Below are positions 19,227 to 46,262 of a stretch of 64,000 nucleotides of DNA, in pieces. The notes beneath the pieces were generated by a model. That model searched no databases, was not told the DNA's origin, and was given only the letters and a program-made list of their open reading frames with translations. Origin of the DNA: Yamadazyma tenuis (taxonomy: Eukaryota; Ascomycota; Pichiomycetes; Serinales; Debaryomycetaceae); the NCBI RefSeq assembly GCF_029203305.1, contig NC_089467.1:744001-808000 (forward strand). The letters run 5' to 3'. Each line of letters begins with the position of its first letter. The first letter of the stretch is position 1. Made by a program: the position numbers and the translations under genes.

Positions 19227-20678
19227 ATGGTTCAACATTTTTCTCCAGTATCTTGTAACCCAGAAGCGCTTTCTCGAGGCCTTCAAGTGGATGTAATTCC
19301 TGTGATTTTGGGGCAGAACATTTCCTATCTTCAACACGTAGACGAGACCACTTCAGTGAGTACGATCTACGGAGTTACTTATACGTTCTTCAGTTTCACA
19401 ATTAAAAATACGGATACCGACTATCATTATCTATATGGAAAAAGCCTAATAGTGAATCCTCTTGGGTTAAGATATACAGGCTATTTCTACGCTCAGCAAG
19501 ATGGGTACCATAAATTTAAGTTTCTAGGTATCGATGATTTTGTTGCTGTTTTCATTGGTAAAGATATTGCTTCAGATTGTGCTAGTGATGGGTACAAGAT
19601 GTCCTTTGATAATGAACATTATTCTGCCGACACCAATGATTTGGATTATTTTTGGGTACTCTTAGAGGCAGGAAAGTACTATCCTTTCAAAATGGATTAT
19701 TATAACAGTATCGGCTCCCTGATACTTAGACTTGTTGTGATGTATCCTGATGGGAGCTATCCTCCAATAGGAGATATACCATTTTACTATAATGTGCCTT
19801 CCAATGGGCTTTCAAGCAGTTTGGAATCATCAAGCAGTTTGGAATCATCAAGCAGCACCGAAACCTCCGAATCTTCAATTAACTCAATCATCGCTGAAGC
19901 TTCAAGCAGTTCGGAAGTCTCAAGTTCGTCTGAGGGTTCGAGTTCCCAGGTCTCCGATAGTTTCACCAATTTGGAACTGTCATCTAGTTCCCAACCCACA
20001 AGCAGCTCACAAGCAATAAGCAGCTCGGAGATTTCAAAAACATCAAAAACTACATCCAAATCTCTCAGGAGTCAGCAGGCTTCTTACACAAATTCGTCCA
20101 GTATTATCAGCTCATCTTTTGGATCTGAGTTGTCTGGTTGGGTTACTCAATTTTCTGGTTCAACTTCGATAACCACTCTAGTTTCTTTTGAGTCCTCAGT
20201 AGCTACAATCCCCAGATCAGCTGCGGCTGAAACGGGGAACACATTAGATTCTATAATATCCACCGATATAGGAAATAACGGTACTGACAGTGGAGTCTCC
20301 AGTGAAGCGTCCGGTACAACCGATGCATCTTGCGGCACAATCACTGTTTTCTGGACTTCCACTATCACGTCTACAACCACCACGACATGCTCAAACGGCG
20401 ACGAAACTGTGGTAATTTACAAACCGACTTTGGGAGTAAGTGCAATGGCGGTCTCCCAAGAATCTACTTATGTCGCCGAAGCAGTCAAAACATCTGTGCT
20501 ACCTACCATTACCGAATTCTCAGGTTATATCAGTGCTACCGGTACAAGCACAATTGGTTCTGGTACTACTGGAATTGAGACCTCAATTGTGCCTTCGCTT
20601 TACAAGGGTGAAGGTTCTCACGCTTCCAATACTTTAGCTTTGGTATTAGTTTGCATGTTTGTTTGGGTTTTGGCTTGA
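19227..20678 (+). CDS. GLEYA/PA14-type cell-wall adhesin, GPI-anchored (paralogue 1)
   Basis: 483 residues. The N-terminal domain (about 20-190) has the GLEYA/PA14 lectin layout seen in yeast flocculins: GYFYAQQDGYHKFKFLGIDD, with the acidic pair of the PA14 calcium site, then FIGKDIASDC and YYPFKMDYYN. A Ser/Thr-rich stalk (about 195-330) follows, with short SSSLE and SSSE repeats. Next comes a Cys-containing module (CGTITVFWTSTITSTTTTTC, about 368-387). The tail ends in a small-residue stretch and a hydrophobic run (ALVLVCMFVWVLA) typical of GPI addition. Unexpectedly there is no N-terminal signal peptide: the frame has a TGA 12 codons before the ATG and nothing hydrophobic between. It is paralogous to the gene at 44478. 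Substrate specificity is unknown. Confidence 0.8.
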   Translation: MVQHFSPVSCNPEALSRGLQVDVIPVILGQNISYLQHVDETTSVSTIYGVTYTFFSFTIKNTDTDYHYLYGKSLIVNPLGLRYTGYFYAQQDGYHKFKFLGIDDFVAVFIGKDIASDCASDGYKMSFDNEHYSADTNDLDYFWVLLEAGKYYPFKMDYYNSIGSLILRLVVMYPDGSYPPIGDIPFYYNVPSNGLSSSLESSSSLESSSSTETSESSINSIIAEASSSSEVSSSSEGSSSQVSDSFTNLELSSSSQPTSSSQAISSSEISKTSKTTSKSLRSQQASYTNSSSIISSSFGSELSGWVTQFSGSTSITTLVSFESSVATIPRSAAAETGNTLDSIISTDIGNNGTDSGVSSEASGTTDASCGTITVFWTSTITSTTTTTCSNGDETVVIYKPTLGVSAMAVSQESTYVAEAVKTSVLPTITEFSGYISATGTSTIGSGTTGIETSIVPSLYKGEGSHASNTLALVLVCMFVWVLA

Positions 20679-25119: not shown

Positions 25120-25465
25120 TACGCTTGTCTTTTTTAAGTGCAAACGTATATTTTAGGTTAGGGTTGGTGTTAATGATTTTATGGTAATTAGTGCATTTTT
25201 TATTTTCGTGATATTCTTCATTTTTCTGGGTATAATAAACAACTTGATGACAAGACGTAGCCATAGTTAGTGAGTACGGCCTGATGCACACGGATTAACC
25301 GCTCCAAATTCTAAGTCAAGTCGCCGGTGGGCTGTTTTATTCGCATTCCGGCGATGACACTCTCTTATCTCGGGCATAGCACCGGCGAATTTTCCGCATT
25401 TGCGATCAGATCGCGAATGGCTACTATATAATCTGCAAATGTCCTACTAATTCCTCAGCAGCAAT
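25120..25465 (+). promoter_or_regulatory. Cluster promoter 1 (monooxygenase A)
   Basis: 346 bp. It holds CGGTGGG (25325-25331), CCGGCGA twice (25348-25354 and 25382-25388), TTTCCGCA (25391-25398), a 13-bp palindrome GCGATCAGATCGC (25402-25414) and a TATA box TATATAA (25425-25431). The first three motifs recur in the promoter at 33009-33262 and CGGTGGG also at 29911-30148. They are candidates for the cluster regulator, because CGG half-sites are typical Zn2Cys6 targets. Confidence 0.55.
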
Positions 25466-26713
25466 ATGACCGTCAACACCTGGAAATCATTAGACGTTGC
25501 CGTGTTGGGAGGTGGTCTTGGAGGCTTATCTGCCGCTCTTGCCATGAGAAGACAAGGCCATAATGTCACAATTTATGAAAGATACGACTATGCCGGAGAA
25601 GTGGGGGCCTCGTTACTGTGTGCTTCCAATGGGGGTAGATGGTTACACGATTGGGGTGTTGATTTCAGTAAGGCTAAACCGGTTATTTTGAAAAAACTCA
25701 TCAAGAGAAAGTGGGAAAACGGTGAAATCATTCTGGAATATCCCCTTGGAGACTATGAGCAAAAGTATGGTTTTCCATACTATAATCTTCACAGAATCGA
25801 TATCCACCAGGTATTAAAGGACTATGCTACATCTGAAGAAGGTGAGGGAAAACCTTGCGAGTTGCTCTTGAATCACAAAGCCACCAAGGTCGACTACAAC
25901 ACTGGCTTTGTCGAGTTTGAAAATGGAACAACCATTACCGTTGATTTAGTAATTGCAGCTGATGGGATTCGGAGTCTCACCAAACCACAGTTGGGCATAA
26001 CTCCTGTTTTTAAGAGCTCCGACTCAGGATGTATTCGTGTTTTGTTTGACACCAAGAAGGTCAAAGAGTTGGGATTGACTGACTACTCTAATAACGAAGC
26101 CATTGAGTACTGGGGAGAAACTAAGTTTAAGATAGTGCTTTCCCCATGCGCCAATAACGAGGTGATTTCGTGCTACTGTTTTTTTGCAGCCGGTGAGGGT
26201 GATGAGAAAAACGACTGGAACAACGACGTTTCGTTGGAGAAGCTCATATCATCCTGCGAAGGATTGGACCCGGTGTTGGTGGAGCTATTCACCAAATGTG
26301 GATACGATATCAAGCAGTGGAGATTGTATGTTCACGAGCCGATACCATATTTCTATAAAGCCAGTGAAACAGGTACCAAAGGAGTGGCTTTACTCGGAGA
26401 TGCTGCCCATGCTATGATGCCAGACCAGTCTCAGGGAGCAGTTGCTGCATTTGAAGACTCGGGTGCTTTGGGATACATATTTTCCAAGAAATTCAACTTG
26501 TCTATTGCGGAGGGATTGAAGATATATGAGTTGGAAAGAAAGGAAAGAGTAACCAAGATTCAAGCAGCCTCGTTAAGAGCCAGAGAGAACTTGAACGAGA
26601 GAATCGGATGGAGTTCCGACAACATCAAGCACGAGCAGAAGTTGACGATAGACGAAGTTTGTGGGTATGATATGAAAGCCCATATAGATGAGTTGATCGC
26701 TGCGAATATTTGA
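25466..26713 (+). CDS. FAD-dependent aromatic-type monooxygenase A
   Basis: 415 residues of the class A flavoprotein hydroxylase family (PHBH fold). The FAD Rossmann motif is GGGLGG at residues 15-20, followed by an acidic residue ending the second strand (IYERY). The conserved DG motif is ADG at 165-167, and the FAD ribityl motif is LLGDAAHAMMPDQSQGA at 309-325. This arrangement is closest to salicylate hydroxylase and related hydroxybenzoate hydroxylases, which use NAD(P)H and O2 to hydroxylate or decarboxylatively hydroxylate a ring. No signal peptide or membrane helix is seen, so it should be cytosolic. It converges with the regulator gene, with 21 bp between stops, and opens the putative cluster. 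The substrate is not deducible. Confidence 0.85.
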   Translation: MTVNTWKSLDVAVLGGGLGGLSAALAMRRQGHNVTIYERYDYAGEVGASLLCASNGGRWLHDWGVDFSKAKPVILKKLIKRKWENGEIILEYPLGDYEQKYGFPYYNLHRIDIHQVLKDYATSEEGEGKPCELLLNHKATKVDYNTGFVEFENGTTITVDLVIAADGIRSLTKPQLGITPVFKSSDSGCIRVLFDTKKVKELGLTDYSNNEAIEYWGETKFKIVLSPCANNEVISCYCFFAAGEGDEKNDWNNDVSLEKLISSCEGLDPVLVELFTKCGYDIKQWRLYVHEPIPYFYKASETGTKGVALLGDAAHAMMPDQSQGAVAAFEDSGALGYIFSKKFNLSIAEGLKIYELERKERVTKIQAASLRARENLNERIGWSSDNIKHEQKLTIDEVCGYDMKAHIDELIAANI

Positions 26714-26734
26714 TTCATATAAATATAAACTATT

Positions 26735-28627
26735 TTAGAACATCACTAAACCAGGATACTGGAAGTACCGAATCTTTGCCCAGTTAACTGAATGGTTCTC
26801 TTGGTTGTCACTCTCCCACACTCGAAGAATCAATTTTTCAAACTCTCCAAGATAGTTGAACTTCAATCTCTCCTTAATTTTCCTTATCCGAGACATTATA
26901 TATGTTCTATCATCGGTTTTATATGCCACCGACCCAGCCATAATCAATGGGAACATTAGCCCCGTCTCCAAGTCACTGTTGGTGCTAATCTGCTTTGTAG
27001 AGCTCAAAATCAAGTCGAGGCATGCCTCTACTCGAGGATCTTTTCTATTGTATCCATTACGAATCTGATGCAACCGCAAGAACGCAGACCACTGTAGGGC
27101 CACCGTAAACTTGGAAAGCATGAGCTTCCCATCATCAAGAGAGTTGTCAATTTGGTATCGTTTCCCGTCTAAAGATGGAGACCAGTTCTGGAGTCTCATT
27201 TCGATCAAAGTAGCAAGAGAGTTGAACTTCTTTTCGTTCTCTTTCGAATCATAACGCAGTGTCCTTAGACTGGCTAGTGTGGATATGTTGCCTATCACTT
27301 TAAAGATTTCACCAGCTATACCAAACTTGAACCCAAACTTACTGTTTAAGATCCTCTCTATATGGTCCTCATCATAACCCCCAAACTCCATATTATCGAC
27401 ATACGGAGTCGAGCAAGTGCTCAAACTTGATATTAGATCAAGGTAGCAGAACAACTGGATGGAAAGTGGCGCAAACAGACTAACTTTGGCCAACCCACCT
27501 CTTTTACCAATGATTTGAGCAGCCTTTTCTAAGGCAAATCCCCAGTAGAGAGAAGTTCCTTCGAAAATCTCCTGAATCGCCAAAAGAAGTATACTCAAAA
27601 GAAGGTTTTCGCTGTCCTGGAAATAGTCAACTGTATTTGCAATAAACAAGCTCTGAGCCTTGGCCCTATAGATGGCAGCATCTCTGGCGTACTCGACATT
27701 TTCTTCCAAATTTGAGTTGGATCTGTGGGAAGCCGAAATACCAATCACTGGGTACCGAACGTTGGGATCTTCAATTGAAAGAGGCACAACAGTTCTTAAA
27801 AAAGCTGTGCTGGTTTTATCAACAAAAAGAAGTGATGAGACATCTGTGATGAAGTACTCCAAAAGTTCGAGTTCTTTTGCCGGAATACTACATGGCTTTA
27901 GTAAGCACGACGAAATCAACATGCTCTTTTCTTGTTCATATACCTCAGCCCCTTCAACTGAATCTGGTGATACTTCTGTCAACTGCGACCGAGAATGATA
28001 CTGAGTTTCCAACTCCAGATTAGGTTCTTTTTCAGGAATGTCAATGGCAAAAGTCGGGGAACGTATCAAGGAGTTCAAGAAGAGCTTCTCCTTGCTACTC
28101 AAAAGACTGTTTTCATCGTTGAATAAGTCGCCGGTCAAGTCCATTATGTTGATATTGGATTCTGCCAGAGAGCTGAAAACATCTGTAATCATGGGACTCA
28201 ACCGGCCCAAAAGCTCGGATTCAAGAGGCCCCAGATTCAAATCCTTGACTGCCGGCGAAGCACCTCCCACCACTCCCTCAGAAACAATGGTGTTTGTATA
28301 CTTAGTTTCAGATCCTTCAGGCGTAACTCTGATAATTTTCAAAGGCCCAGAGCACTTGATGCCAAGCCGACTACACATCAGACACGTAGGCCACTTCTCA
28401 TCACATTTCTGTTTTCTTTTCTTACACCCGGCACACGCATTGTGGCTGTACTTAGATTTCGTTTTCTGGTCCACCTTATCTTTGGGGGCTCTAGGTCTCC
28501 CCATTTTAGCCACTGGCCGCTCATACGTACACAGAATACTAGCCCGCACACATGCCAGGCATTCTAGCTGGCTGTCACAGGTCTGCTTGAGCCGGTGGCA
28601 CCGGTCACACGCTCTTTTGGTTGACAT
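26735..28627 (-). CDS. Transcription factor with two tandem Zn2Cys6 clusters
   Basis: 630 residues. Cluster 1 uses C7, C10, C17, C23, C26 and C33; cluster 2 uses C65, C68, C75, C82, C85 and C92. Both have complete ligand sets. A basic AT-hook-like segment (KMGRPRAPK, about 41-49) lies between them. The rest resembles the fungal-specific regulatory domain (about 200-600) with mostly helical, leucine-rich sequence. Most fungal factors of this class have a single cluster, so the tandem head is unusual. It lies inside the metabolic cluster and is the natural candidate for its regulator. Only 83 bp separate its start from the stop of monooxygenase B on the same strand. CTG codons occur at residues 24 and 83, where Ser is expected. 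Confidence 0.87.
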   Translation of the reverse strand: MSTKRACDRCHRLKQTCDSQLECLACVRASILCTYERPVAKMGRPRAPKDKVDQKTKSKYSHNACAGCKKRKQKCDEKWPTCLMCSRLGIKCSGPLKIIRVTPEGSETKYTNTIVSEGVVGGASPAVKDLNLGPLESELLGRLSPMITDVFSSLAESNINIMDLTGDLFNDENSLLSSKEKLFLNSLIRSPTFAIDIPEKEPNLELETQYHSRSQLTEVSPDSVEGAEVYEQEKSMLISSCLLKPCSIPAKELELLEYFITDVSSLLFVDKTSTAFLRTVVPLSIEDPNVRYPVIGISASHRSNSNLEENVEYARDAAIYRAKAQSLFIANTVDYFQDSENLLLSILLLAIQEIFEGTSLYWGFALEKAAQIIGKRGGLAKVSLFAPLSIQLFCYLDLISSLSTCSTPYVDNMEFGGYDEDHIERILNSKFGFKFGIAGEIFKVIGNISTLASLRTLRYDSKENEKKFNSLATLIEMRLQNWSPSLDGKRYQIDNSLDDGKLMLSKFTVALQWSAFLRLHQIRNGYNRKDPRVEACLDLILSSTKQISTNSDLETGLMFPLIMAGSVAYKTDDRTYIMSRIRKIKERLKFNYLGEFEKLILRVWESDNQENHSVNWAKIRYFQYPGLVMF

Positions 28628-28710
28628 TGAGCGTATTTCACTTGAGATAAGATATGAGAATTTAGATACCAGTGCGCGGTGTTTTTTTCATAATCTACTA
28701 TTTTATTGAG

Positions 28711-29910
28711 CTACTTAGTGTTCTTTCTCATACTCAAAAGGGGCAGATCTGTGTCAGGCCTGATTTTCGAGAAATTATGGGCATCTAGACATGCTTGTCG
28801 GGAGAGCAAAACAGCAGGAGCAGCCCGGGCCTTAATCCCGCTACAGAAGTCTTTTGCAGCCACTTCCCAGGTTTTGCGACCTGCCAAATACTCGTCGATA
28901 TGTTTCATAAGCTCAAAGGCGTCAGTAATTCCATGATTGCCTGCTTCACCCCGAAACATCGTCATAGCATGGGCGGCATCCCCAGCTAACAAGACCTGGG
29001 TTTGGTGGGGCCATTCCACCACTGGCCAGTCGCATAAGTTAATTTCTAAAATGGTGTCTGGGTCCTCAACCGCTCTGTCAACCAACCATTTCAATTTGGG
29101 GTTCAATCCCTGTGAGTGCACTTTCATGGCTTCGGTCTTATCAACATTGGTGACAAAAGGCTCGTCGTAGTCAGGGACATTCCATGACAAGTTAACTTGG
29201 GCATAATAGACATCTTCTTCCTGAGTGTACTCTGGTGTTGCCAACATTGAGAACCAGAAAAACGTGTTGTTTTCAGGCACAGTTCCCTGAAATAACAAGG
29301 GATCAAAGTCGGCGGCAATTTGGTCGGTCTCTGCCTTTGTCATCTTGACACGTGATCCACAGAATCTCACCGGGAGCTGGTACAATTGCCCATTTTCCGG
29401 ACATATGATTCTTCTAGTCATCGAGTTGGCACCATCACATCCAATAAGCACATCCCCGGTGAAAACAGTCCCATCCAGGCAGGTAACCGTCACCTGAGAA
29501 TTGGTGGTATCAATATTGTCGAGTTTGCAGTTCCACTGGACGTCAATTCCACTCAATAGCATTCTTCTGATCTGCTCTCTTCTTACCCGCAATCGCTTTG
29601 AAGGAGGAATGGACACCACCGGATCCCCAGAGGCGGCATTGATGTAGATGAACTTACCGGTATCTTTTTCATGAAAGCCTGGCAACACCTGGGCCGCGTA
29701 AATCTGTTCCACCAAGTCGGGTGGTAATAAAGATTTGAAGTTTTCCAAAGCCCAGTGCAAGGTGATGGCCCAACCGGCGTTTTCTCTGTAATGAACATCG
29801 ATGTCTCTGTCAAAAATGACAAAATCTATGTTTCTGGCCTTGAATGCCTGAGCAATGAGTAAGCCCACAAGCCCGGCGCCACTAATAAGAAACCTTTTAT
29901 TTTCAGACAT
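28711..29910 (-). CDS. FAD-dependent monooxygenase B
   Basis: 399 residues of the same broad flavoprotein monooxygenase superfamily as monooxygenase A but a different branch. GAGLVG at 11-16 is the FAD-binding loop, CDG at 158-160 the DG motif, and LLAGDAAHAM at 307-316 the second FAD motif, followed by EAGNHGITDAFEL. This branch (FAD_binding_3 type) includes TetX-like and fungal secondary-metabolism hydroxylases. The start at 29910 (MSENKRFLISGAG) places the Rossmann strand normally; an open extension to 30099 is rejected because it runs through the divergent promoter. It is divergent from the hydrolase gene across 238 bp. It may act before or after enzyme A in one pathway. Confidence 0.85.
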   Translation of the reverse strand: MSENKRFLISGAGLVGLLIAQAFKARNIDFVIFDRDIDVHYRENAGWAITLHWALENFKSLLPPDLVEQIYAAQVLPGFHEKDTGKFIYINAASGDPVVSIPPSKRLRVRREQIRRMLLSGIDVQWNCKLDNIDTTNSQVTVTCLDGTVFTGDVLIGCDGANSMTRRIICPENGQLYQLPVRFCGSRVKMTKAETDQIAADFDPLLFQGTVPENNTFFWFSMLATPEYTQEEDVYYAQVNLSWNVPDYDEPFVTNVDKTEAMKVHSQGLNPKLKWLVDRAVEDPDTILEINLCDWPVVEWPHQTQVLLAGDAAHAMTMFRGEAGNHGITDAFELMKHIDEYLAGRKTWEVAAKDFCSGIKARAAPAVLLSRQACLDAHNFSKIRPDTDLPLLSMRKNTK

Positions 29911-30148
29911 GGTTAGTTTGGTGGATCGTGAGCATAATGGGCCATTAAGTAACAGAAGCAGCGCGCGATAAGAGCGGAATGTTGCAAAGTTCCCACCGAT
30001 AACCAAGTGCGGTTTGCGGCGCTGGGGCCGGGCTCTTTTGCCGCAGACCACCAGGTAGATTCCGGCCACTAAAACCCAGATTCCGATCCCGCGCCCCATA
30101 TAAATTGCAACACTTCCACTGCTAACACATCCTTAACAACCAATTAGA
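29911..30148. promoter_or_regulatory. Cluster promoter 2 (monooxygenase B / hydrolase)
   Basis: 238-bp divergent promoter. It has CCCACCG at 29992-29998 (CGGTGGG on the minus strand), several CGG-containing GC-rich blocks (such as GCGGCGCTGGGGCCGGGC) and a TATA box TATAAA at 30099-30104 for the plus-strand gene. Confidence 0.5.
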
Positions 30149-31204
30149 ATGTCTGGACACGAAGCCGTCAACCCAATCCACCCATCGATGGTGGGAAAAA
30201 TGGACCCAGCCTTCGTTAAACTTTACGATGAGCATGTCGCCAACACCCCCAATAGGCCCATTGACCTCCCAGTATTGCGTAAGAACTATTCCAAAATCTA
30301 TTCATATGGAACTGCTCCAGCACCCGAAACCTCCAACATCAGCGACATTACATTCCCGTCGTTCGATGGGGCCGACGTGCGTTTGCGGATCTACCGCCCC
30401 GAAGGTGTGGCCGACGACGTGGTGTTACCGGTGCACATTGATTTCCACGGTGGAGGTTGGGGTCTTGGAGACTTGGACACCGAGAGTCACGTGTTGAAGC
30501 ATTATGTGGATTTGGCCCAGATCTGTGTCATTGACGTCGACTACAGGCTTGTACCCGACTTTGCGTACCCTACGGGACTCAAGGACTGTTTTGAAGCCAC
30601 TAAATATGTCTATGAGAATGCTGAAAAATTGCATATCAACAAGCATAGTATTTCGGTGGGAGGAGTGTCAGCGGGAGGAAACATCTGCTTAGCAGTGAGC
30701 CATCTTGCGCGAGATGTGGGGATCTCGTTGGTGCTTTGTGTGGCCGGTACTCCCCAAGTTGACGATATTGAACCGTATAAAACCGCTGCCGATTCGCCCT
30801 ACCCATCGTGCCAGGAGTGCGAGTTTGCACCCACTTTGAATTGGGCCCGGTTAAAGTGGTTTGACAAGTTAAAGTGGGACTCGTTGTCATCGGATGCGGC
30901 CGAGCGGGCCCAGCAGTTTGAGGAAATCGGGTGGTTCAAGAGTATTATTACTGCACCAGATTTCACCAATTTGCCCAAGACGGTGATTTATACTGCTGGA
31001 TGTGATCCCATGAGAGACGAGGGAGAGGCGTATGCCACCAAGATGATTAAGAACGGAAATGACGTGGTGTTCAAGAGATATCCTGGAGTTCCTCATCCGT
31101 TTATGCACATGGATGCTACGTTGTGGCAGGCATCCGATTATATCAAGAGAACGGCATTTGATCTTGCGGTGGCCCACCGCACCGTGAAGGTGTTTTTTGA
31201 ATAG
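30149..31204 (+). CDS. HSL-type alpha/beta hydrolase (esterase/lactonase-like)
   Basis: 351 residues of the alpha/beta hydrolase-3 (hormone-sensitive-lipase-like) family. The oxyanion motif HGGGW is at 100-104; DYRLVPDFAYP is the usual family motif; the nucleophile is Ser174 in GVSAGG. The acid is probably Asp286 (CDPMRDEGEAYA) and the base His316 (GVPHPFM). There is no signal peptide, so the enzyme should be cytosolic. Family members hydrolyse small carboxylic esters, lactones or amides. Between two monooxygenases and a reductase it would fit hydrolysis of an ester or lactone intermediate, which is inference. Start at 30149 follows a TATA box by about 45 bp. Confidence 0.85.
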   Translation: MSGHEAVNPIHPSMVGKMDPAFVKLYDEHVANTPNRPIDLPVLRKNYSKIYSYGTAPAPETSNISDITFPSFDGADVRLRIYRPEGVADDVVLPVHIDFHGGGWGLGDLDTESHVLKHYVDLAQICVIDVDYRLVPDFAYPTGLKDCFEATKYVYENAEKLHINKHSISVGGVSAGGNICLAVSHLARDVGISLVLCVAGTPQVDDIEPYKTAADSPYPSCQECEFAPTLNWARLKWFDKLKWDSLSSDAAERAQQFEEIGWFKSIITAPDFTNLPKTVIYTAGCDPMRDEGEAYATKMIKNGNDVVFKRYPGVPHPFMHMDATLWQASDYIKRTAFDLAVAHRTVKVFFE

Positions 31205-31445
31205 GATGTGGAGAGTTGGGGGAGTAGACAATTAGTAGAGAATAAATGAGCAGACTTCAGAAGTTGTAGAGAATTTGTGGAGAGCAATTGGGATGTCAGT
31301 GGATGATAGTGAGACAGAACAGAGAACAGAACATGTGCAACACGAGTAGTGTAGTACATCTGTACATCACATCTGTATATCACTTGAGTTATAATAGACA
31401 ACTACAGCAGCTTTTCTTATCTCTATTACCTACATTCATAATACA

Positions 31446-33008
31446 CTAATACAAATACCGGAACCGCTTGTTCTCGAAATCAGTCAAGTCTGCCCAGGCA
31501 TTCTCCGTCTCATCTTTATACTCTCCCACATACTTGTCCCTCTTCTTGTTTCTGATATAATAAATTCCCACAATCACCAACGCAAGCCCAATGCTCACAC
31601 ACTGAGTTATAAGCATCGATACCTTGGCAGGCTCGTACTTTGGAGCATCCACCGCACGGTAACTAAGTGGCCCAGTAATGTTACCCAAAGCAAACCCAAC
31701 ACTGATGAAAACAGCCTGCATTCCAATCTTCTTGGTGCTTCCTGACACATTACTACTGGCCCACACTATCGCAAGCGCATATGGACAAGTGATGAAATTC
31801 ACAAGATAGATACCAATTAAAAGACCCGCTTTGTTGTTACTTGGTAAGTACGACATAAGGGCAGCCCCCACCACTGCTGGAACCAACGTACAACAAATTG
31901 TCAAGTACCTTGGAGATCCTCTTTTGATAAAGTAACTGGCCACCACCGACGCAAACACACTCACGACCCCCGAAGGCATTCCCAACAACGCTGCTTCCTT
32001 GGAGGTGAACCCAAATGAAACAATATCAATGGAAGAAAAGGTGGAAATGGTGTTGGAAGAAAACGAGATGGTTGCACAGATGAGCAAGAATAACCACCCT
32101 TGGATATCAAACAACAACTCCAACGCCTGTTTGGGCTTGAAGATCTTACCGGTGACTCCAAGTTTTCCTTCAGTCAACTTTACAAGCAAAACATACTTTT
32201 CTTTCGCAGTCAACTTCTTATTCTCCAATGGAGTGCTAGGAAGTACCAAAAACACGTACACCCCAGCCAAAATATTCAACATTCCAATCACAATGAACAT
32301 GATTCTCCAGCCGGAGACGGGAGCAGTCAAACTAACGTGCTGGAACAAGAAACTTAGAAGTCCTCCAACTATTTGCCCAATTCCAAGTCCACTATACCAC
32401 ACTCCCGTGAAAAAAGCAGCATCTTTCTTGTCCACAAAGTTGGACGTCAAAATCATCATACACGGAACAATAGCAGCCTCTGATGCCCCTAACAAAATCC
32501 GCACCACCAAGATTCCAGCAAAGTTCTGGGTGGCAGCACAGCATGCTGTTAAAATCCCCCAGATCACCACATTAACTCCAAGCACTTTGGCAACTGGGAA
32601 CTTCTGGATAACAAACATTTGAAGAAACTCAAACACAATGTACGCGATGAAGAACGACATGGGAAGGCGCGAGAACTGGTCGCCTACCAACCCGAGTTCT
32701 GCTTGAAGACCCATCACATTACCATAGTTCAACGTAACTTTATCGATAAATTGCAAAAAGTAGCAGAAAGTCATGGGAAACAAAAATTGCTTGGCCAACT
32801 TCACCACCACCTTTTCATAGGACGTGTCCTCAGCCTCGTGAGCCTCGACATCGAAGTCGTTGATATACTTGAAGTTGGGATCACTTTGCGCCTGGGTGTG
32901 GATCTTAAGGTCTAAGTCTTTGATCTCACCGGCCGCGAACTCCAAAGAAGGAGCCACTTCACTTACGCTTTTTTCCTCGTAAACTGTCGTGTCCTTTTCG
33001 GTCGACAT
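31446..33008 (-). CDS. MFS transporter, allantoate permease (Dal5/Tna1) family
   Basis: 520 residues with about 12 hydrophobic segments and a hydrophilic N-terminus (about 90 residues). Family features are seen near the first helices: FIDKVTLNYGNVMG, then RLPMSFFIAYIVFE, and RILLGASEAAIVPCMMILTSNF. These are typical of the anion:cation symporter family that includes Dal5, Tna1 and Vht1, which import organic anions such as allantoate, nicotinate and biotin, and of fungal hydroxybenzoate permeases. The start at 33008 (MSTEKDTTVYEE) is preferred; in-frame upstream methionine codons exist. It is divergent from the SDR gene across 254 bp. It probably imports the cluster's substrate. Confidence 0.85.
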   Translation of the reverse strand: MSTEKDTTVYEEKSVSEVAPSLEFAAGEIKDLDLKIHTQAQSDPNFKYINDFDVEAHEAEDTSYEKVVVKLAKQFLFPMTFCYFLQFIDKVTLNYGNVMGLQAELGLVGDQFSRLPMSFFIAYIVFEFLQMFVIQKFPVAKVLGVNVVIWGILTACCAATQNFAGILVVRILLGASEAAIVPCMMILTSNFVDKKDAAFFTGVWYSGLGIGQIVGGLLSFLFQHVSLTAPVSGWRIMFIVIGMLNILAGVYVFLVLPSTPLENKKLTAKEKYVLLVKLTEGKLGVTGKIFKPKQALELLFDIQGWLFLLICATISFSSNTISTFSSIDIVSFGFTSKEAALLGMPSGVVSVFASVVASYFIKRGSPRYLTICCTLVPAVVGAALMSYLPSNNKAGLLIGIYLVNFITCPYALAIVWASSNVSGSTKKIGMQAVFISVGFALGNITGPLSYRAVDAPKYEPAKVSMLITQCVSIGLALVIVGIYYIRNKKRDKYVGEYKDETENAWADLTDFENKRFRYLY

Positions 33009-33262
33009 AGTAGGTACTGATAGCTGTACAGAACCATTATGGTCTTTTGGTGTCTTTATATATCTCATAAGAACTGACCGGTGGGATTTCCGCACACGCT
33101 GATGCTGCGCGCGTGGATGCCTTACGATAAGATAAGCCGGCGACAATACCTAATCTGGCAACCAAAAAGTCCCCGGCATCGATCGGCCATCGCAATTCTC
33201 ATACTCGGCTTTATATAGAAACATAAGAAAATCCCCCTACAACTACTCAAACCTGTGCACAT
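33009..33262. promoter_or_regulatory. Cluster promoter 3 (transporter / reductase)
   Basis: 254-bp divergent promoter. CGGTGGG lies at 33079-33085, TTTCCGCA at 33087-33094 and CCGGCGA at 33137-33143, the same three motifs as in promoter 1. TATA-like boxes lie at 33055-33062 (for the transporter, minus strand) and 33212-33217 (for the reductase). Confidence 0.55.
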
Positions 33263-34309
33263 ATGACGATTCCTATTCTGGTGAGCCCTGGCTCAAAAGT
33301 TCTTGTAACTGGAGCAACTGGATTTATTGGTGCCCACTGTGTCCAACAATTATTAGACAGAGGGTATGAAGTCAAAACCGCTGCAAGATCCAAAAATAAG
33401 TTTAATACCTTGAAAGCATGTTTCGAGGAGCACCATCAACTGAAGCTCTCATTTGCATTGGTGTCAGATATCGGAAACTACGAACAGTTGGTGGAGGCTG
33501 TCAAAGACTGTGACGGAGTGCTTCACTTGGCATCACCATTCTCATATACTGTCACAGATATGGAAGCCCAACTTCTTAAACCTGCGTACGACGGTACCGT
33601 CACCATGTTGGAGGCCAGTTTGACCGAACCGAAGGTCAAGAGAGTGATTATAACCTCGCTGTTTGCTGCTGTTTATGATGCTTCTAAAGGGTTGCAACCT
33701 GACTATGTTTACACCGAGAAAGAATTTAGTCCCCTTACGTGGGAAGATGGGGCCAACACCAAAGATGTTCTGTTGGCTTACAGAGCCTCGAAAATCGTGG
33801 CGGAAAAAGCAGCCTGGCAGTTCATGGAGGAGAAAAACCCTCAATTTGATCTTTGTGTTTTGTGTCCTACGATGGTGTTTGGTCCACTTTTGTCGAACCA
33901 ATTGTTCACTACGTTTGAGGATTTGAACTTGAGCAATTCGGTGGTTTGGACGATTGCCACCAGCAAAGAAGTGCCTCCCACCAAGGGTCCGTTATTTGTG
34001 GATGTACGGGACTTGGCGTGGGCTCACGTAGAGGCTTTGGGGAGTGAAGCTGCTTCAAACTCTCGGTATCTTATTTCTGCTGGGGATTTCGATAACCAGG
34101 AAATTGCTGATATCTTGAGAGAGAGTTGGAGTGACAAGAAGCTTAGAGAGGGAGTCCCTACGGGAAACCCAGGCCATAGACTTACTGGAACCCACTTCAA
34201 GACAGATTCTAGTAAGGCTATAGCTGAGCTTGGTATGACATTTCGTCTGCTCAAAGAGTCTGTTTTGGACCTTTGCGACCAGCTTGCTGAAATACACAAT
34301 AGAGGGTAG
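33263..34309 (+). CDS. Extended SDR reductase, Gre2 / dihydroflavonol-reductase-like
   Basis: 348 residues. The NAD(P)-binding motif TGATGFIG is at 16-23 and AARSK near 40 suggests NADPH preference. The catalytic set is Ser132 in ITSLFAAV, with Tyr173 and Lys177 in YRASK. This is the extended SDR family of Gre2 (methylglyoxal and ketone reductase), dihydroflavonol reductase and cinnamoyl-CoA reductase, which reduce aldehydes and ketones. Yeasts often have several paralogues, so presence here need not imply cluster membership, but it shares a promoter with the transporter and the same motifs. The start at 33263 gives a normal N-terminal strand. No targeting signal is seen. Confidence 0.87.
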   Translation: MTIPILVSPGSKVLVTGATGFIGAHCVQQLLDRGYEVKTAARSKNKFNTLKACFEEHHQLKLSFALVSDIGNYEQLVEAVKDCDGVLHLASPFSYTVTDMEAQLLKPAYDGTVTMLEASLTEPKVKRVIITSLFAAVYDASKGLQPDYVYTEKEFSPLTWEDGANTKDVLLAYRASKIVAEKAAWQFMEEKNPQFDLCVLCPTMVFGPLLSNQLFTTFEDLNLSNSVVWTIATSKEVPPTKGPLFVDVRDLAWAHVEALGSEAASNSRYLISAGDFDNQEIADILRESWSDKKLREGVPTGNPGHRLTGTHFKTDSSKAIAELGMTFRLLKESVLDLCDQLAEIHNRG

Positions 34310-44477: not shown

Positions 44478-46262
44478 ATGTCTGCCACGAGTGTTGATAG
44501 TGAACCAGTAGAGTGTTACCCAGAAGGGCTTTCTCAAGGGCTTCAAGTGGATATAATTCCTGTGTCCTCATGGCAGGATTCTTCCTATCTTCAATACATT
44601 GATGATACCACTCCAGTGGATACTATCTATGGAGTTACCGACGTGGACTTCATTTGGGATTCTTATTCTACCAGCCCTGTCGATCTATACGGAAGTAGCA
44701 CAGTGGTGAATCCCCTTGGGTTGAAATTTACTGGTTATTTCCATGCTGGGTTAAGTGGAGAATATACATTCAATATCGATGCTATTGATGACAATATTGC
44801 TATTTTCATTGGTAAAGATATTGCATCAAGTTGTGGTTGTGATGGATTCAAGACTTCTTTGGATAAAGCACAAATTCGTTACAGCAATGTGATTTATGGA
44901 TCAGGGACCAGTTTTAGTGTGTTCTTAGTAGGAGGATATTTCTACCCTTTCAAAATGGATTATTATAACTTGGATGGGCCTCTTGAACTTGAGATATCTG
45001 TGAACGATCCTAACGGAGAAACTCTTTCACAAGGCGATATTCCATTTTACTATAACACCGTACCAGCTTGTGAGTCCTCAAGCAGTTCAAGTAGTTCGGA
45101 GGCCTCAACCCTGTCAAGCAGTTCGGATGCCTCAAGTTCATCTGAAGCATTGAGCAGTTCGGAGGCTTCGAGTTCGTCTGAGGCTTCGAGTTCGTCTGAG
45201 GCTTCGAGTTCGTCTGAGGCTTCGAGTTCGTCTGAGGCTTCGAGTTCGTCTGAGGCTTCGAGTTCGTCTGAGGCTTCGAGTTCATCTGAAGCTTTAAGTA
45301 GCTCTGAAGCATCAAGCAATTCAGAAGCATCAAGTTCGTCTGAAGCTTCGAGCAGCTCTGAAACATCAAGTTCATCTGAATCCTCCAAATCTTCAGCCTC
45401 CTCTGAGTCTTCTAATTCCACCAGTTTGGAATCCACCAGGAGCTCAGAATCCACAAGCTCAAAAGTCTCATCCTTCAGTAGTCAGACTTCTAACACAGCT
45501 TCTTCCAGTATTGACAATTCATCGTTTACATCCGAACTGTCACTTTCTTCTGGGACGTCCACTTCTGCTACTGAACTGTTAGATTCGGCTACTCAATTTT
45601 CTGGTTCCTCTTCGGAAACCAGTCAAGTCTCTGGGCCTTCAGTAGCTACAGATTCCTTAGACATCAGCTCAGCAACAGCTTCAGATTTATCGGATTCAAC
45701 TTCCGTCATTACAGATTCTTCCAGTAGAATCTCCACTAAGGTCTCTGGTAGAGTTACAGGAGAAAGTACTTCATCTGCGACTCCTGCTGTCGTAACAGAT
45801 ACGGAATATACCCCTGATACCATTACTGCTTCATCTAGCACTTCCAGTGGAGGTACTACTAAAACATCTTGCAGCACAATCACTGTTTTCTGGACTTCCA
45901 CTATTACCTCTACAACCACCACGAGTTGCTCAAATGGCGAAGAAACTGTGGTGGTTTACAAACCAAGTAACAGTGATGAGAAAACTTTGATAAGTGCTAT
46001 TCCTGTCTCCCAAGAGCTTGTAGAAGTTTTGACATCTACTTATGCCGCCGAAGCAGCCAAAACACCTGTGGTGTCAACCATCACCGACTTCTCAGATATC
46101 AACGCTACCAGTGTAAGCGGTATTGGTACTGGTACTGGTACTGGTTCCGGAACAACTGGTGCCACCTCAATTGTGTCCTCGCTTTATAAGGGTGAAGGGT
46201 CTCAGACCTCCAACACCTTAACTTTGGTGTTGATTTGCATGTTTATGTGGATTTTGACCTAA
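44478..46262 (+). CDS. GLEYA/PA14-type cell-wall adhesin, GPI-anchored (paralogue 2)
   Basis: 594 residues, aligned along its whole length with adhesin 1. The ligand domain (about 20-190) has GYFHAGLSGEYTFNIDAIDD, FIGKDIASSCGCDG and YFYPFKMDYYN. The Ser-rich stalk is longer because of an expanded EASSSS array (about 216-310). The Cys module (CSTITVFWTSTITSTTTTSC, about 465-484) and the GPI-type tail (TLVLICMFMWILT) are conserved. A TAA directly precedes the ATG, so no signal peptide can be added without an intron that I do not see. The gene lies between two direct copies of the PGM3 promoter. It should expose a lectin-like domain at the cell wall if it enters the secretory pathway. Confidence 0.82.
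   Translation: MSATSVDSEPVECYPEGLSQGLQVDIIPVSSWQDSSYLQYIDDTTPVDTIYGVTDVDFIWDSYSTSPVDLYGSSTVVNPLGLKFTGYFHAGLSGEYTFNIDAIDDNIAIFIGKDIASSCGCDGFKTSLDKAQIRYSNVIYGSGTSFSVFLVGGYFYPFKMDYYNLDGPLELEISVNDPNGETLSQGDIPFYYNTVPACESSSSSSSSEASTLSSSSDASSSSEALSSSEASSSSEASSSSEASSSSEASSSSEASSSSEASSSSEASSSSEALSSSEASSNSEASSSSEASSSSETSSSSESSKSSASSESSNSTSLESTRSSESTSSKVSSFSSQTSNTASSSIDNSSFTSELSLSSGTSTSATELLDSATQFSGSSSETSQVSGPSVATDSLDISSATASDLSDSTSVITDSSSRISTKVSGRVTGESTSSATPAVVTDTEYTPDTITASSSTSSGGTTKTSCSTITVFWTSTITSTTTTSCSNGEETVVVYKPSNSDEKTLISAIPVSQELVEVLTSTYAAEAAKTPVVSTITDFSDINATSVSGIGTGTGTGSGTTGATSIVSSLYKGEGSQTSNTLTLVLICMFMWILT
45162..45287 (+). repeat. 18-bp tandem repeat in adhesin 2 stalk
   Basis: Seven units of GAGGCTTCGAGTTCGTCT, six identical and the seventh with one change, encode repeated EASSSS. 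Less regular copies flank the array on both sides. Near identity implies recent expansion. Confidence 0.95.

Follow-up and report, generated by a model that had tools for sequence, protein, structure and literature searches.

A candidate six-gene catabolic cluster with two FAD monooxygenases in Yamadazyma tenuis and the linkage of its three-enzyme core in other ascomycetes

Among the fungal systems for aromatic and heteroaromatic acids, those closest to the locus analysed here, six adjacent genes of the yeast Yamadazyma tenuis that include two flavin adenine dinucleotide (FAD) monooxygenases, are the gentisate and 3-oxoadipate clusters of Candida parapsilosis, which contain the dioxygenases GDX1 and HDX1 (PMC8929692), and the nicotinate (hxn) cluster of Aspergillus nidulans, which contains the phenol-hydroxylase-type HxnV (PF07976) and the cyclic-imide hydrolase HxnM (PMC8478523) and has a C2H2 regulator, HxnR (PMC5746545). 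The hxn clusters are stated to be absent from Saccharomycetaceae and Debaryomycetaceae (PMC8478523). The hydroxybenzoate permeases of yeasts (HBT) are of the aromatic acid/H+ symport (AAHS) type (PMC5566891). In Aspergillus niger the NahG-like FAD monooxygenase GacA is required for gallic acid use, and a strain with all 17 candidate ring-cleavage genes deleted still grows on gallic acid (PMC10512348), so that monooxygenase-led breakdown of aromatic compounds is possible. Cluster 3 of Ophiostoma piceae (OPP_07705-07708), induced on pine sapwood sawdust, consists of a salicylate hydroxylase, an NAD-dependent epimerase, an arylacetamide deacetylase and a sugar transporter (PMC3680317), and a Trichoderma genome survey found 116 degradative cluster families with a salicylate hydroxylase gene (PMC10735191).

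The window analysed in this work is a 64 kb stretch of contig 7 of the Y. tenuis genome (10.86 Mb in 8 contigs). An earlier note, made from this sequence alone, had described six side-by-side genes in it and interpreted them as a metabolic cluster; the six-gene set is confirmed and the interpretation is partly supported. All six open reading frames (ORFs), translated with the CTG = Ser code, are present, domain searches gave the families that had been named, and the coordinates hold for five of them, while the second monooxygenase gene begins at 29910 and not at 30099. The genes, here called FMO1 and FMO2 for the two monooxygenases and otherwise named by family (HSL, hormone-sensitive lipase; MFS, major facilitator superfamily; SDR, short-chain dehydrogenase/reductase), are as follows.

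FMO1, 25466..26713, + strand: 415 aa, PF01494; salicylate-hydroxylase-type FAD monooxygenase with GGGLGG, DG and GD motifs
Regulator, 26735..28627, - strand: 630 aa; PF11951 (Fungal_trans_2) and two PF00172 stretches
FMO2, 28711..29910, - strand: 399 aa, PF01494; FAD monooxygenase; ORF open to 30099
HSL-type alpha/beta hydrolase, 30149..31204, + strand: 351 aa, PF07859
MFS permease, 31446..33068, - strand: 540 aa as listed, PF07690; anion:cation symporter (ACS, Dal5-like) type
Extended SDR of GRE2 type, 33263..34309, + strand: 348 aa, PF01370/PF01073; TGA and YRASK motifs

In our estimate there is an even chance that all six genes belong to a single co-regulated cluster whose role is the catabolism of an aromatic or heteroaromatic carboxylic acid. 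They are more than chance neighbours, because a core of three enzymes (FMO1, hydrolase and FMO2) is linked in other fungi and because one site is shared by the promoters of this locus.

Linkage of the core genes and the shared promoter site

Linkage was assessed from three protein searches, with FMO1, FMO2 and the hydrolase as queries and the best 120 rows of each. Positional locus tags allowed 22 same-genome pairs between members of any two of these families to be compared; in 19 of them the genes are four locus tags or fewer apart. These close pairs come from 15 of 16 genomes, of yeasts as well as of filamentous fungi; the tags are, for example, 554 (FMO2), 555 (hydrolase) and 557 (FMO1) in Ogataea philodendri, and 7971 (FMO1), 7974 (hydrolase) and 7975 (FMO2) in Aspergillus nanangensis. 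By comparison of contigs, 32 of 43 same-species pairs share the longest contig (this holds for one or more pairs in 26 of 35 species), and 13 same-sized contigs recur in all three lists (57, 51 and 37 of the 120 rows compared). The linkage spans CTG-clade and Ogataea yeasts as well as Aspergillus, Penicillium, Trichoderma and Fusarium.

Several species weigh against a fixed linkage. The three far pairs comprise two in Priceomyces, with FMO1 elsewhere and FMO2 adjacent to the hydrolase, and one in Fusarium avenaceum, with FMO1 and the hydrolase far apart; in the contig comparison, 11 of the 43 pairs have different longest contigs, including those of Aspergillus caelatus, Halenospora varia, Clavispora and Penicillium nalgiovense. 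These 11 are not all proof of separation, since one row can represent several genomes, and Ogataea polymorpha was scored as different though the tags of its FMO1 and FMO2 relatives are three apart. The earlier note had given scattered orthologues as grounds for abandoning a cluster: the orthologues of FMO1, FMO2 and the hydrolase are not scattered, although some species do have them apart, and the linkage of the three genes bears out the proposal of a metabolic cluster.

The phylogenetic trees were all midpoint-rooted, purely for display. In those of the hydrolase and of FMO2, the yeast rows that were sampled (10 and 12, respectively) are separated from all other rows with 100/100 support. In the FMO1 tree, 16 rows from filamentous fungi are set apart by a 100/99 branch, and Ogataea and Scheffersomyces stand beside the filamentous rows, away from the CTG-clade group. 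The trees fit either descent from a common ancestor or old transfer. The three-enzyme core recurs across ascomycetes, and the metabolic cluster is real and probably co-regulated.

Two of the three promoters are divergent, as had been noted, i.e. FMO2/hydrolase (238 bp) and MFS/SDR (254 bp if the permease starts at about 33008), and FMO1 has its own promoter of 346 bp. The permease may indeed start at its second Met, at about 33008. A spaced palindrome, CGG-N8-CCG, is present in all three, and four of its five intergenic copies in the window fall within these 838 bp.

FMO1 promoter, 25371..25398, + strand: two overlapping CGG-N8-CCG sites, the second being CGGCGAATTTTCCGCA at 25383
FMO2/hydrolase promoter, 30015..30030, - strand: CGGCCCCAGCGCCGCA; a further CGG-N8-CCG at 30017 and a CGG-N9-CCG at 30029
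MFS/SDR promoter, 33079..33094, + strand: CGGTGGGATTTCCGCA

Among 4000 sets of dinucleotide shuffles, the N8 form occurred in all three promoters in 1/4000 and any common spacer of 0-20 in 10/4000. The extended form CGG-N8-CCGCA has 92 copies in the whole genome, one of them in each of the three promoters, where 0.007 copies would be expected in 838 bp at the genome-wide rate. Co-regulation, which the earlier note had considered favoured by the promoter arrangement, is therefore likely given this common site, and the cluster's own regulator might bind it. Some caution comes from the way the motif was defined and from its distribution: the CCGCA extension was picked after two sites had been seen, so that only the third promoter and a site upstream of a LigB-type gene (below) are independent of that choice; the 92 copies compare with 175 for a reversed control, so that the motif is unenriched genome-wide; and of 30 other sites inspected, 20 are in ORFs and 10 between ORFs. 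No exact 8- to 10-mer is common to the three promoters, which have only the spaced motif in common. Of a longer form, CCGG-N5-TTTCCGC, the third genome-wide copy (contig 1, C1:567307) sits inside an ORF. Another CGG-N8-CCGCA site, at C1:787711, is located between a divergent gene pair, one member of which is MFS-like by eye.

The encoded proteins and flanking genes

FMO1 is nearest, both in sequence and in the fold of its predicted model (predicted local distance difference test score, pLDDT, 88.7), to the decarboxylative aromatic 1-hydroxylases acting on 4-hydroxybenzoate or vanillate. The fold matches rank in the order VibMO1 (8gsm, template modelling score 0.83), vanillate 1-hydroxylase, GsMNX1 (8r2t) and then NicC, and structure 8x38 is among the best matches together with VibMO1 and GsMNX1. 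The next relatives are tropone 2-monooxygenase, 6-hydroxynicotinate 3-monooxygenase and 3-hydroxybenzoate 6-hydroxylase. Both kinds of match support a ring-hydroxylating type for FMO1. The identity to the decarboxylative 1-hydroxylases is yet only 24-26%, and to the structures among the matches listed 26% at most, which is a point against the catabolic reading; a decarboxylating hydroxylation, as of a benzoate, is for FMO1 a predicted activity. Within the CTG-clade yeast part of the tree stands an FMO1 relative, P0031, whose annotated source is a basidiomycete, Cerrena zonata, which contamination or transfer would explain.

The start of FMO2 was placed at 29910 because the database copy of the protein (P0121, 399 aa, beginning with MSENKRF) and most of the aligned homologues start at or near this position. 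Its predicted model (pLDDT 90.5) is similarly close to HpxO, 4hb9, TropB, AbsH3, NicC and TetX, and the fold comparison resolves no sub-family among these listed structures, to none of which FMO2 is more than 21% identical, again a point against the catabolic reading. Beyond FMO1 and FMO2, a genome search gave five PF01494 matches, three of which, inspected by eye, are the housekeeping enzymes kynurenine monooxygenase, COQ6 and squalene epoxidase.

The hydrolase has the sequence hallmarks of an HSL-type serine hydrolase, i.e. an HGGG oxyanion motif at residues 100-103 and a predicted triad of Ser174 (in GVSAG, a GxSxG motif), Asp286 and His316; the Ser, Asp, His and HGGG are kept in 24 of 24 aligned proteins. 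Assignment to the NCBIfam LipP1 lipase equivalog was rejected (189.6 bits versus a curated cut-off of 350 bits). When GTDB genome contigs were scanned twice for the hydrolase, first with alignment A3 and later with P0348, no bacterial relative emerged. P0348, labelled Nevskiales bacterium, is the sole "bacterial" match in the best 120; in the tree it nests inside Hypocreales, which suggests contamination or a gene acquired from a fungus.

The permease scores best as ACS rather than AAHS type, with 180.1 bits for NCBIfam TIGR00893 versus 37.4 bits for TIGR00895 (AAHS), both under the curated cut-offs; no other match in the genome exceeds 33% identity to it. The best solved relatives of the SDR are methylglyoxal reductases/GRE2, and its best paralogue in the genome is 42% identical. 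The regulator carries two complete tandem Zn2Cys6 clusters (residues 7-33 and 65-92), both copies fitting the six-cysteine spacing of a binuclear cluster, followed by the Fungal_trans_2 domain; none of its 20 other matches in the genome is a full-length paralogue.

On one flank of the cluster is a gene for a GATA-finger protein and on the other a gene for a ubiquitin/UBA protein, domains which would fit the ASH1 and DSK2 named in the earlier note, at domain level only. Adhesin-like ORFs with GLEYA/PA14 domains are found some distance off on either side, at 19227-20678 (with a Ser-rich stretch) and 44478-46262.

Ring-cleavage dioxygenases, the proposed route and its rivals

The earlier note had pointed out that a ring-cleavage dioxygenase is missing from the cluster, and we agree, as none is linked to it. 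In the whole genome, no match was found to intradiol (hydroxyquinol/catechol) dioxygenase (PF00775), gentisate 1,2-dioxygenase (TIGR02272) or homogentisate dioxygenase (PF20510), in searches whose control genomes were prokaryotes, i.e. without a yeast positive control, and which did not extend to further extradiol families (e.g. PF00903). The known yeast 3-oxoadipate and gentisate routes are thus without their defining enzyme; of the suggestion that the pathway may differ from these or feed into an unlinked one, the second part becomes unlikely as far as these routes are concerned. The idea that the genome has no ring-opening dioxygenase at all was dropped, because PF02900 gave a LigB-type gene and the cupin search a BNA1-like protein. 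The three Cupin_2 matches are by eye an acireductone dioxygenase, a Mif2/CENP-C-like protein and a BNA1-like 3-hydroxyanthranilate dioxygenase, a ring-opening enzyme normally in NAD synthesis. The LigB-type extradiol dioxygenase gene, the only one in the genome (C5:872184-873182), is unlinked to the cluster, and its closest relationship is with 4,5-DOPA dioxygenases. The 605 bp upstream of it contain CGGCTCGGTGTCCGCA, a CGG-N8-CCGCA site 112 bp before the start codon, where 0.005 such sites would be expected (0.04 to 0.09 at the looser CGG-N8-CCG rates); sharing this site with the cluster makes the gene a lead, not proof.

A second catabolic-looking cluster (C3:1305444-1318779) comprises two MFS genes, a fumarylacetoacetase-type (FAA) hydrolase, a C2H2 regulator (by eye), TauD, a Zn2Cys6 regulator and a hydantoinase/oxoprolinase. 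The best NCBIfam match of the FAA hydrolase, under the cut-off, is 2,4-didehydro-3-deoxy-L-rhamnonate hydrolase. As a continuation of the pathway this locus was set aside because no CGG-N8-CCGCA site was listed there.

We consider it most likely that the cluster degrades an aromatic or heteroaromatic acid; for this reading, we infer the substrate class, the decarboxylation, the order of steps and the role of the LigB-type gene. The ACS-type permease would import the carboxylate anion, which FMO1 would hydroxylate, probably ipso with loss of CO2 in the manner of the 4-hydroxybenzoate/vanillate 1-hydroxylases and 6-hydroxynicotinate 3-monooxygenase. FMO2 might then insert a second oxygen, so that the ring becomes tri-oxygenated or quinonoid or a lactone forms; the HSL-type hydrolase might cleave the lactone, an ester or a vinylogous C-C bond, and the GRE2-type SDR might reduce the carbonyl so formed. 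The nicotinate route of hxn is not known to use a dioxygenase for ring opening; ring opening here might likewise need no classical one, or might proceed via the unlinked LigB-type dioxygenase. The regulator, with its two zinc clusters, would activate all three promoters via CGG-N8-CCGCA. More tentatively still, the locus may represent an ascomycete pathway that has not been described so far and probably dates back to the split between yeasts and filamentous fungi. In it, two FAD monooxygenases and a serine hydrolase would break down an aromatic or heteroaromatic acid with no need of intradiol, gentisate or homogentisate dioxygenases, controlled by a regulator whose tandem zinc clusters read CGG-N8-CCGCA.

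The main rival, which we regard as rather unlikely, is detoxification instead of growth: the enzymes would modify a toxic phenolic, quinone or lactone of plant or microbial origin by hydroxylation, hydrolysis and reduction, and the MFS protein would move the acid or product across the membrane, with no carbon gained. GRE2-type reductases have reactive carbonyls as substrates, and the lack of matches to intradiol, gentisate and homogentisate dioxygenases is in line with such a role; ACS-type MFS proteins are mainly importers, however, and the same upstream site is found at a LigB-type dioxygenase gene. The sawdust-induced cluster of O. piceae offers a parallel at the level of gene names, in the part of the source concerned, and its induction fits growth equally (PMC3680317). 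Fungal biosynthetic monooxygenases occur in the fold matches (TropB and SorC for both FMO1 and FMO2, AfoD for FMO2), which would suit a cluster that makes or tailors a small metabolite (a hydroxyquinone, lactone or chelator), starting from a primary aromatic compound, for instance 4-hydroxybenzoate. Such a role is improbable, as the six genes include no scaffold-making gene, the permease is of importer type and FMO1 is nearest to decarboxylative hydroxylases, though VibMO1 itself is a biosynthetic enzyme.

To the same degree improbable is a conserved core of FMO1, hydrolase and FMO2 beside which the MFS, SDR and regulator genes are unrelated neighbours in this lineage. The linkage data from other fungi cover only the three core genes, and the GRE2-type SDRs (14 other matches) and MFS proteins (33) are numerous in the genome, which also tells against the catabolic reading of all six; on the other side, the MFS/SDR promoter holds the same site as the core promoters. 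Membership in a known fungal cluster (gentisate, 3-oxoadipate, homogentisate or nicotinate hxn) is very improbable: the broad ingredients are the same (FAD monooxygenases, MFS, SDR and a Zn2Cys6 regulator), but within search sensitivity it is contradicted by the missing hallmark families, since the defining dioxygenases were unmatched and the cupin matches are other proteins by eye, neither monooxygenase matches PF07976, the phenol-hydroxylase domain of HxnV, and the regulator is of Zn2Cys6 type versus the C2H2 type of HxnR.

Comparison with described systems

In the literature searched, which left most subscription papers outside, no description of the FMO1-hydrolase-FMO2 set was found. Fungal "salicylate hydroxylase" genes are common and few have been tested, and the core linkage gives one of them recurring partners. 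The system is small, with six genes, three promoters and a single regulator in a genome that gave no match to intradiol or gentisate dioxygenases, so that its substrate could be found by growth tests, which would show whether fungi open aromatic rings by monooxygenases without intradiol or gentisate dioxygenases.

Of the described systems, cluster 3 of O. piceae resembles FMO1, the SDR, the hydrolase and the transporter by gene names only, and no second FAD monooxygenase is listed in it in the part of the source concerned (PMC3680317); the fungus has an FMO2 relative, P0183, among the best 120 FMO2 rows. The GacA route of A. niger shares the monooxygenase-led breakdown, while gacA is not described as clustered in the corresponding part of its source (PMC10512348). 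Like the C. parapsilosis clusters (PMC8929692), the Y. tenuis locus combines an FAD monooxygenase, an MFS permease and a Zn2Cys6 activator in a CTG-clade yeast; unlike them, it has an ACS-type permease, two FAD monooxygenases, an HSL-type hydrolase and a GRE2-type SDR, and the genome searches gave no match to either of their types of dioxygenase. With the hxn cluster (PMC8478523) it has in common two FAD monooxygenases, an SDR, hydrolases and permeases; it is set apart by a Zn2Cys6 regulator and by monooxygenases outside PF07976, in place of the HxnR, HxnV and HxnM of the nicotinate system.

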